Assembly (NCBI RefSeq): GCF_000001735.4
Contig: NC_003070.9
Coordinates: forward strand, 23,917,971 to 23,981,970
DNA length: 64,000 bases
Direction of reading: 5' to 3'
DNA from: Arabidopsis thaliana
Lineage: Eukaryota; Streptophyta; Magnoliopsida; Brassicales; Brassicaceae
Made by a program: the position numbers and the translations under genes. Below the pieces are notes generated by a model that was not told where the DNA came from, did no database searches, and saw only the letters and a list, made by a program, of their open reading frames with translations. Positions within the stretch are counted from its first letter, which is position 1. Each line of letters opens with the position of its first letter. This document shows positions 44,927-48,240 of this stretch, one piece after another.

Positions 44927-45352
44927 CAATGCTTCACTTGTATACAACTTTCTTGTATGGATCTGAGAGTTTTGTTTCTTATTTTTCTCTGGAAACATGT
45001 CTTCTTTAGAAGAAGGTTTTAGTGTTCTATTTTTTTATAAGATGTATAAAAGCACACTTCTCCACATCAATAGATGTTGATTGGAATAATGATATATAAT
45101 TGTTATTATTTACCTATGTGACTTAGCCTATTACTTGGATTGAATTGATTTCAAAATTAACATAAGTGACCAAATTTATACAAGTGACCAGTTTTGAGTA
45201 ATTTAGGGGAATGGCCAACTTTATGGAGGTTTTGAACTCCCAAACCTACTCGCTGCTTTCCCTTCTTATTTCGTGAGCTTTTGGGCTAAAAGTTTCTTAT
45301 TAGTTGTGTAATTGTGTTAGTATATTTTCTCATTGGTGGAAGAAGCAAAGAA

Positions 45353-45526
45353 ATGGCATGTATGACAAATTCAATGCCGTTCATTTTAGTGGTATTGTTC
45401 CAAGTGGGGCTAGCAGCAGTGGACATTCTCACAAAGGATGTCCTAAACAAAGGCATGTACAATTACGTCCTTCCCGTGTACCGTCATCATCACGCTACTA
45501 TTTTTATGACACTTAAATGTCAATGA
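45353..45526 (+). pseudogene. WAT1/MtN21-type (EamA transporter) first-exon relic
   Basis: The frame reads MACMTNSMPFILVVLFQVGL then AAVDILTKDVLNKGMYNYVL and PVYRHHHATIFM, which follows the start of plant WAT1-related transporters (first membrane span, then LNKGM..YV..VYRH..AT). It stops after about 58 codons, with no further exon found downstream. Confidence 0.6.
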
Positions 45527-45595
45527 CTTAAAATCAATATCTCACATGATAAAACCTTAATTTATATGCATGCATACATATCTTTTTCTTTTATA

Positions 45596-45644
45596 ACTTT
45601 AATATTTCCCTTTTGCACAAAAAAAAAAAACTTTAATATTTCCC
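45596..45644. repeat. Short poly(A) insertion inside a 15-16 bp direct repeat
   Basis: ACTTTAATATTTCCC at 45596-45610 recurs at 45630-45644. Between the copies are only TTTTGCAC and an A run. This is the same layout as the tract at 914-990. Confidence 0.75.
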
Positions 45645-45765
45645 AAAAGCTTGGTCCATTACATCATATATGTATGCATGATTTTTTCCACGTACAAAAA
45701 GCATATTGGTAAAAATAGTATATATACGTTTATGGATTATTTTTTGAATTGGTTTAAGTTAACTT

Positions 45766-46295
45766 TTATGGTCTTCCTTTCCCTGGTTCATGATCTTGAT
45801 TGGCTCCTGTTCTTGCATAGTCTAGATGAAACTCCACAAGCTCTCTCTCCTTTATTTTGACATCCTCCTTAAAAACAATACCCTTTTTTTTATTCAAAAA
45901 GTTAATAAACCGATGTTAAAACTTTCTAATCACTATCATAAAGTGTTGAAAATTGGCATGGAAAGTAGGGTAAAGATTGGTGTTTACTTTATCTCACACA
46001 GCAACACAACGTTAACACGCCATTAAGTAACCATTTTTTATAATCTATTAATGTTTATCTCAAACTAAGTTTCTATACATATGATCAACTTATGAACTGT
46101 GGTACGCGAATCATGATATCATGATATAAGATACAAAAGTTGAGTATATTGTATATTATAAAACGGAAAGGAAAGAAATTTTACCTTCTCCGACCTGAGA
46201 TTCACAAAATGACGAGGGGTGGCGTTTGATACATCAGTGGAGGTGATAGTGAAAAGAAGAAAAATGAGAACTACTAACTTTGTATTATAGCTCAT
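45766..46295 (-). CDS. PSY-family tyrosine-sulfated peptide precursor (two exons, 70 residues)
   Basis: Exon 1 (46185-46295) encodes MSYNTKLVVLIFLLFTITST DVSNATPRHFVNLRSEK, with a clear signal peptide and probable cleavage after SNA. A donor GTAAAATT follows. Exon 2 (45766-45867, acceptor TTTTTAAG) encodes EDVKIKERELVEFHL and then the C-terminal 18 residues DYARTGANQDHEPGKGRP, stop TAA. These align position for position with mature PSY1: Asp1-Tyr2, Ala7-Asn8, His11, Pro13, Gly14. PSY peptides are secreted, sulfated on Tyr2 by TPST and sensed by PSYR receptor kinases in the growth/stress trade-off. The exons join in frame with no lesion. A TATAAAA box lies at 46356-46362, about 60 bp upstream of the ATG. 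The gene is convergent with NLP6. Confidence 0.85.
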
Positions 46296-46355
46296 ATTTG
46301 TTTTTTGTTTTTCCTTAAAAAACTTAAGATTAGCAAGACATAAAATTTAGTGGGA

Positions 46356-46362
46356 TTTTATA
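46356..46362 (-). promoter_or_regulatory. TATA box of the PSY-type gene
   Basis: TATAAAA on the minus strand, about 60 bp before the ATG at 46295. The spacing fits a transcription start near 46330 and a short leader. Confidence 0.55.
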
Positions 46363-47960
46363 GAGACATATGAGATGAGTTATATAGAAGCAAGAGGTGG
46401 AGATGACATTGTGATAAAAGGTTTGTTATTCATTTTGGAAACACAATGAAAAGCTATGGATAATTATAATTGTAAATTTCTAGGAATATTATAATTAGTC
46501 ACATAAAATAAGATAATAGTTTTTTCAACAAATGAATTATCAAAGTCAACTAGGTGCACTATGGATCCTCTTTATTCTCCTCAATTCATCATGTCTCAAT
46601 TTGCTTTAGTTTGCTCATAATTTAACAAATATATACGAAAGTACAATATACATTTTGCTTGTTTATATTGGTACTATTTGACATGGACCTTTACTTGATT
46701 TCAACATAAAAGTCTTTTATCTTTATTGCTAATTTAATCATTACCTATTGGAACCATGATATCACCACATAGATCAAACTTTAATAGGAAATAAATATAA
46801 ATGGACTGAATGGTACATGGGGGAGGCTGGTTAGGGTAGTGGCCGTGATAATGGAGAAGAGCACCGTATAATTTGATATATTCCTAATAAAAAGTTGAGT
46901 GATTGATTCATATCTCGCCTCTTTGTTTATATCTCTTTCAAAACCTTTACCAAACCCATAAAGCCTAATTCATTCGTCTTTTTTTCTTTAATCTTTATGT
47001 ACCCACAAGCACTCATCACATATTCTACAAATTTCTTAAAGCAAAATACTATCACTGATTTTTTTCTAAAAATGATTCGATCTTATCAAACAAAAATGAG
47101 GATTATGATGGGCAACAATGAATGGGTTATATGGCCATACAATTTATTCTATTGGGCTTTAGAAATAAGAAGGTCTTCTATCTCCATGCCACTCAAAATT
47201 TCTTTTCTCTGGTCTTGGTGCCCTTCTTCTTATGTTCCCAAATCTGGAGTAAGTTGATGAGATAAAAATCATAAGTTTATATATCTTCACTGTTTTTGCT
47301 CAAAATTCCCTTTAATGCTTCTCTTAAAGACATAGCTTAATTGTGTCCTTCATTCATAGGCATTTGTTGAAAGATAAGTAATTAATGGTTAAGAAGACCA
47401 TTCCTCTGTCACTTGGCTTCTTATCTTGTCTTTATGGATCAAGTACTACTGGCTCAGAGAAAACTGCATACATGAAGATTTGAAGAAAAATGAGACTCTG
47501 AATTGTCTACTTCAAGGAATGTTCAAAGTGTCGAAAGCAAAGATGAGAAGCATTTCAGAATCAGACTCTCCTTGGAAATGGATCATCATCGTGATTACTT
47601 TAACCTTCAGTCCTTGTAAATTTTAATCTTCTCTATGACGAGTCTTCAGAAAAGTAAAGACTCAGCTAGCCTGCGTACAAGTAATAAGGAGAATTCTTGG
47701 CCCCATATATTCTGGTCTCAATCGATAAGATGACTTCAATATCTGTTAGTTCATATAAATACCCATGTAAGGGAAGCATTCTGTGCTCAGATTGGTATCT
47801 TCCTATAGCATATCTTCTTGTCATCCAGACTCTATCGGAAACGACAGCTGAAGTTATGGTAGCTGTTGACGTTACCAGTGAGTTTTTCTAGTTTTCTTTG
47901 CCTGCTGATTGATCAGCTTGATCATCCAAATAAATGCGTCAAGGTTAACAAACCGGTCAT
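46363..47960. other. Intergenic region with no clear gene
   Basis: Frames at 46997-47257, 47426-47626 and 47697-47891 show partly protein-like composition, but I recognise no domain. Parts may belong to the ATR-like relic immediately downstream. Confidence 0.45.
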
Positions 47961-48240
47961 GTGAAAGGGGGATTTGCAACTCTACTTTCAAGAGCTGCTC
48001 ATATTCAAAATGAGTTGTTTGATAATCTATCTGTCAGGCTGACCAGACGTCCAAATGTGGTAAGAAAATTTGCAGAAGCTGTTTTGGGCGTTGAAACTGA
48101 AAAACTTGTTAGGAAAATGGTCCCTGTTGTTCTTCTTCCTAAGCTCTTGGTATATTGGCATTTGGCAGGATACTGCTCAAGCTGCCAAAAAAACCGTCTT
48201 CTTTTCTTCTATGTATGTTATGACGAAGGAATGTTTTAAA
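47961..48240 (+). pseudogene. ATR-like PI3K-related kinase fragment (helical repeat / UME region)
   Basis: About 75 codons read KGGFATLLSRAAHIQNELFD, NLSVRLTRRPNVVRKFAEAV, LGVETEKLVRKMVPVV and LLPKLLVYW, which I recognise as the plant ATR checkpoint kinase region. After VYW the homologous continuation (QDTAQAA) lies in the next frame, so the copy is frameshifted. It has no flanking ATR exons and is a dispersed gene fragment. The assignment is from memory. Confidence 0.55.

Follow-up and report, generated by a model that had tools for sequence, protein, structure and literature searches.

PSYs are plant peptides that contain a sulfated tyrosine. Their precursors are described by a motif, DYxxxx[AP]NxxHxP, by a length of 60-200 residues and by the position of the motif in the second half of the precursor, and an SBT6.1 site is present in PSY1-5 (PMC7913133, Tost et al. 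2021). PSYR1-3 signal stress unless a PSY is bound, and hence signal when ligands are absent (PMC10519359), so every PSY ligand is worth knowing. The family was extended partly by motif scans of annotated proteins (PMC7913133). Nine members, PSY1-PSY9, make up the list in PMC11534595, which has no gene of the region considered here, and nine PSY genes are also counted in PMC12642490.

The locus described here lies on the minus strand of Arabidopsis thaliana chromosome 1, at Chr1:23963736-23964265 (~23.964 Mb), and may in effect hold a tenth Arabidopsis PSY. The features read from its sequence suggest, with a probability of roughly 0.7, an intact protein-coding gene for a small precursor of the PSY family. 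A preliminary description had proposed a PSY-type precursor outside the named set, and that proposal is supported by the motif, the precursor layout, the phase-0 last intron, the spacing of the RxLx motif and the absence of the candidate from the PSY1-PSY9 list.

Gene structure and predicted precursor

The window, that is, the whole 64,000-nucleotide stretch of DNA analysed (chromosome 1, 23917971-23981970), contains the candidate at 46295-45766. The extent 45766..46295 given for it in the preliminary description proved exact, and the strand, which had been left unstated, is minus. Upstream in the window, GAF_NLP and PB1 domains mark NLP-type exons on the plus strand, and an F-box/LRR gene lies downstream; the NLP gene is called NLP6 in the preliminary description, and we take the neighbours to be AT1G64530/AT1G64540. 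The surroundings of the candidate hold two further stretches of note, in neither of which a Pfam domain was found. Between the NLP gene and the candidate, an open stretch at window 45347-45508 (+) shares 67% identity over 54 residues with chromosome 2 (C2:15724696-15724857) and has eight further, weaker matches elsewhere; in appearance it is a first exon standing alone, presumably that of a transporter of the WAT1/nodulin-21 type. At window 47958-48167 (+), a fragment of 70 residues shares 87% identity with a section of a longer frame on chromosome 5 (C5:16349829-16350035), which is probably the ATR kinase gene. This fragment seems to be a duplicated piece, since the chromosome 5 frame is its sole non-self match at E up to 0.01.

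Table. Features of the candidate PSY-type gene, in window positions
Feature	Position	Strand	Basis or remark
TATA-like sites	46356..46386	-	TATATAA at 46386 (-91 from ATG), TATAAAA at 46362 (-67)
Exon 1	46185..46295	-	37 codons: ATG, hydrophobic likely signal peptide, start of pro-region; phase 0 end, AAG/GTAAAA
Likely signal peptide, MSYNTKLVVLIFLLFTITSTDVSNA	46221..46295	-	hydropathy; cleavage probably after SNA
Intron	45868..46184	-	317 nt, GT-AG, phase 0; GC 0.278, T 0.388
Branch-like TTAAC	in intron, 38 nt before exon 2	-	sequence reading
Tandem acceptor AAGGAG	45865-45870	-	second AG 3 nt downstream; intron end would then be 45865
Exon 2	45766..45867	-	33 codons and stop: end of pro-region, mature peptide
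RELV, an SBT6.1-type (site-1 protease) RxLx motif	45835..45846	-	read from translation; R lies 8 residues ahead of the D in DY
Predicted mature peptide, DYARTGANQDHEPGKGRP	45769..45822	-	carries the PSY motif; mature ends predicted
Poly(A)-like AATAAT	45736..45741	-	25 nt past stop; weak

Two short exons, found by translation and splice enumeration, combine into one reading frame when the GT-AG intron between them is removed. Their product is MSYNTKLVVLIFLLFTITSTDVSNATPRHFVNLRSEK(E)DVKIKERELVEFHLDYARTGANQDHEPGKGRP, where the bracketed residue depends on the choice of acceptor: either AG of the tandem keeps the frame, and one Glu is added or removed at the start of exon 2, for a precursor of 70 or 69 residues. 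The enumeration thus agrees with the two exons and the 70-residue precursor of the preliminary description and adds the 69-residue form that arises through the second acceptor. Rough splice scores, computed with self-written weights drawn from general knowledge, are 5.3 for the donor and 3.6 and 3.9 for the two acceptors. Base composition changes across the exon boundaries, GC being 0.396 in exon 1 and 0.422 in exon 2 as against 0.278 in the intron; of the 105-nt segments in 45051-47705, 10.7% reach the GC content of exon 1 and 2.6% that of exon 2. The TATA box that had been ascribed to the gene fares less well. TATA-like sites do stand ahead of the ATG, yet they are weak evidence because the AT-rich spacer carries about 5 copies of TATAWA per kb.

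The precursor opens with a stretch whose hydropathy maximum over 10 residues is 3.4, compared with 3.0 for PSY1 and 2.8 for PSY2, hydropathy alone having been computed; signal cleavage is placed after SNA by the small-residue rule. The published motif DYxxxx[AP]NxxHxP occupies residues 53-65 of 70, and both precursor length, at 70 or 69 residues, and position of the motif in the second half agree with the description of PSYs. As had been claimed, the C-terminus is DYARTGANQDHEPGKGRP followed directly by the stop codon. The RxLx feature upstream of DY, which the preliminary description does not list, is likewise present as RELV, a site predicted from sequence. Its counterparts in the translated loci of PSY1-5 are RSLL, RFLM, RSLM, RSLM and RKLM, each lying 8 or 9 residues ahead of the Asp. 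A Pfam search with the candidate precursor returned a best E of 0.19, to something unrelated, and a PDB search returned nothing useful.

Relationship to the named PSYs

For the comparison of intron layout, published peptides served to locate PSY1-PSY6 and PSY8 in this genome, and PSY7 and PSY9 were located in a stretch of chromosome 3; gene models were then enumerated with each precursor fixed at its published length (Table 1 of PMC11534595), and the best-scoring were kept. Plausible models resulted for seven of the nine PSYs, with none for PSY4 and PSY5 at the thresholds used. Those of PSY1, PSY2 and PSY3 each contain a single intron, of phase 1; in those of PSY6, 7, 8 and 9 (one model each) a phase-1 intron is followed by one of phase 0, after which comes the peptide exon, the three-exon model of PSY6 having appeared only after the donor threshold was lowered. 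Models set aside were the two-exon versions of PSY4, PSY7 and PSY9, five lower-scoring ones of PSY3 and early ones of PSY4 and PSY6; for PSY6, PSY7 and PSY9 the three-exon models superseded them. The last intron of the candidate is phase 0 and lies right before the mature-peptide exon, as in the models of PSY6, 7, 8 and 9 (four of the seven), and the candidate has no phase-1 intron after the signal peptide, which all seven reconstructed PSYs have; both features of layout were derived in this analysis and are not a published criterion for PSYs.

A tblastn search with exon 2, against a set of 17 loci built around the PSYs and with filters and composition correction off, found PSY8, 3, 7, 9, 4, 1 and 6 (E 0.016 to 0.21) ahead of the first non-PSY match (E 1.5); within these 17 loci PSY2 (E 2.1) fell below this first noise and PSY5 was not found. 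A search with the full precursor puts PSY3, 4, 8, 7 and 9 at the top, but PSY1, PSY6 and PSY2 (E 0.52, 0.98 and 9.0) among or below non-PSY matches. Shuffle comparisons of exon 2, which covered six of the nine PSYs (PSY4, 5 and 7 being the three outside the set), gave alignment scores above 2000 of 2000 shuffles for PSY8 and likewise for PSY3. For PSY1, PSY2, PSY6 and PSY9 the scores exceeded all but 2, 6, 8 and 2 of 2000, the PSY9 value resting on the two-exon model that was later replaced. The pro-region alone showed no significant likeness to that of PSY8, 2364 of 20000 shuffles scoring as well. Identity over the whole precursor is only 22-29% to the seven PSYs aligned. The criterion of similarity for PSYs is an E of up to 20 to PSY1 in a database search; pairwise BLASTP of the candidate against PSY1 gave E 7e-4, as a single comparison and not a database search.

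Searches of the genome revealed no second copy of the candidate at E up to 10 for protein or up to 0.01 for DNA. The protein searches exclude close copies only, since the known PSYs were likewise not recovered by them. Recent capture of a copy of a different PSY was considered as an origin, and the absence of a close second copy speaks against it. Nor did a relaxed motif pattern find a syntenic PSY relic near NLP7 in 18.6 kb of chromosome 4 around the best match to NLP6, where tblastn gave matches at E 1.5 or worse only; the two regions are putative duplicates.

Chance and alternative readings

Could a chance open frame simply happen to end like a PSY? Over its two strands the 64 kb window holds a single occurrence of the motif, that of the candidate. 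A second-order Markov model trained on the window produced 1 match in 400 Mb of single strand, which corresponds to ~3e-4 per window and ~0.6 per genome, an expectation that rests on one simulated match and is imprecise. Since the motif is expected about 0.6 times per genome, it is no proof by itself on a genome-wide scale, and to this extent the idea of coincidence is favoured. Against it, none of 3000 dinucleotide shuffles of the upstream 1 kb supplied a spliceable, in-frame signal-peptide exon at either a loose or a strict threshold, and the real sequence passes both; the test kept the peptide fixed, and its thresholds were chosen with the gene in view. Together, the rarity of the motif and the outcome of the shuffles make chance unlikely even genome-wide. 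Given further that intron phase and place match four PSY models and that an RxLx site is present, a coincidental frame is very improbable. More improbable still is membership of another family of sulfated peptides, RGF/GLV, CIF/TWS1 or PSK. RGF and CIF/TWS1 peptides also start with Asp-Tyr, bar one member of the EY type, but the C-terminal residue is N in RGF/GLV peptides and either N or H in CIF/TWS1 peptides, and PSK has the sequence YIYT[QH] (Table 1 of PMC11534595). The candidate peptide ends in GRP, without the C-terminal N of RGF/GLV or the N or H of CIF, and has the PSY spacing of A7, N8, H11 and P13.

Of more weight, though unlikely, is a formerly functional PSY gene that has fallen silent or lately escaped constraint and has stayed intact by luck. 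The spacer does hold apparent pieces of other genes, with the 67%-identical relative on chromosome 2 and the 87%-identical part on chromosome 5, but the candidate has an intact start and stop, intact splice sites at both ends of its intron, and an unbroken frame and motif. At 0.05, 0.1 and 0.15 substitutions per site, simulated neutral decay, which assumed 0.1 indel per substitution and two thirds of indels disabling, left 14%, 1.8% and 0.3% of copies intact with the motif. As the intact, motif-bearing state so rarely survives, any loss of function would probably be recent. A different kind of alternative, possible if rather doubtful, is that the locus is already annotated under some locus number and is in that sense ordinary, which would be compatible with a tenth PSY. 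Repeated re-annotation of this Arabidopsis region speaks for it. What speaks against it is the silence of the open-licence literature, in its main texts, which holds no mention of four locus numbers between those of the neighbours (AT1G64535, AT1G64533, 64537 and 64538) or of fragments of the candidate protein and no sulfated peptide called 'PSY10'.

Proposed action and comparison with individual PSYs

If the gene encodes a PSY, its precursor would enter the ER, and, by analogy with the PSYs, TPST may sulfate Tyr2 of the mature peptide. An SBT6.1-like protease might cleave at RELV, and a subtilase might free the N-terminus of the peptide between Leu and Asp-Tyr; the C-terminus would need little or no trimming, given that the predicted peptide ends at the stop. 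Once secreted, and without the hydroxyproline-arabinose of PSY1, the peptide could bind PSYR1-3 and hold back stress signalling by these receptors, such that growth proceeds. Whether the locus yields a tenth functional PSY ligand that was overlooked in the reference annotation, one that ends at the stop and is without the arabinosylation site of PSY1, is a more tentative matter, to which we give somewhat less than an even chance; the PSY-PSYR ligand set would in that case be incomplete. If so, a missed PSY could mask the phenotypes of multiple psy mutants and could extend the map by a cell type or condition. More broadly, motif scans of annotated proteins would then be able to overlook members with exons so short that they elude gene finders.

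PSY1 (AT5G58650), with the peptide DYGDPSANPKHDPGVPPS, shares D1, Y2, A7, N8, H11, P13 and G14 with the candidate, which upholds the hallmark positions that had been named, and its precursor has a similar N-terminus. It differs by its phase-1 intron, by a further tail past the mature peptide and by Pro16 and Pro17, which we take to be its hydroxylated prolines. The preliminary description had placed Lys15 and Gly16 of the candidate in their stead; the ungapped alignment with PSY1 corrects this to Gly16 and Arg17. Two prolines of PSY1 are hydroxylated, PSY2-8 do not fully retain them, and proton pumping by PSY1 is independent of hydroxylation or glycosylation (PMC7913133). Consequently, the missing prolines do not exclude the candidate.

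PSY7 (AT3G49305) and PSY9 (AT3G49300), which are tandem genes, resemble the candidate in their phase-0 last intron, and PSY7 does so as well in the KLVVL of its signal peptide and in a tail PGYGRP to compare with PGKGRP. Both depart from it in having GP and not GA in the motif, a long Pro-rich tail and an extra phase-1 intron, and PSY9 has D where the motif has N. Beside these two genes, at about 18282422-18283009 of Chr3 (minus), lies a possible third tandem relative. It begins like a signal peptide, with MKLVVLFSFLLMFSLCSS, and ~0.6 kb further on has an open stretch that contains MDYPGPNEPGRRYPGRP, without the N..H.P spacing. In PSY3 (AT2G29995) and PSY4 (AT1G07175) an RxLx motif, there RSLM, likewise stands 8 residues before DY, and both share AN..H.P and a basic Gly/Pro-rich tail with the candidate. 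They have DP or EP at positions 4-5, where the candidate has RT, and PSY3 in its best model has just one intron, of phase 1.

PSY8 (AT3G47510) is unlike the candidate in its extra phase-1 intron, its 85-residue precursor and its Cys-containing tail after the motif, and the SBT6.1 site is given for PSY1-5 only (PMC7913133). Its last exon, however, follows a phase-0 intron and opens with DVK, as that of the candidate does with E-DVK; this exon begins EDVKIKERELVEFHL-DY in the candidate and DVKKEVEERMVMELN-DY in PSY8. Likewise, the peptides of both carry GAN..H.P, and PSY8 is the best tblastn match of exon 2, at 45% identity over 29 positions.
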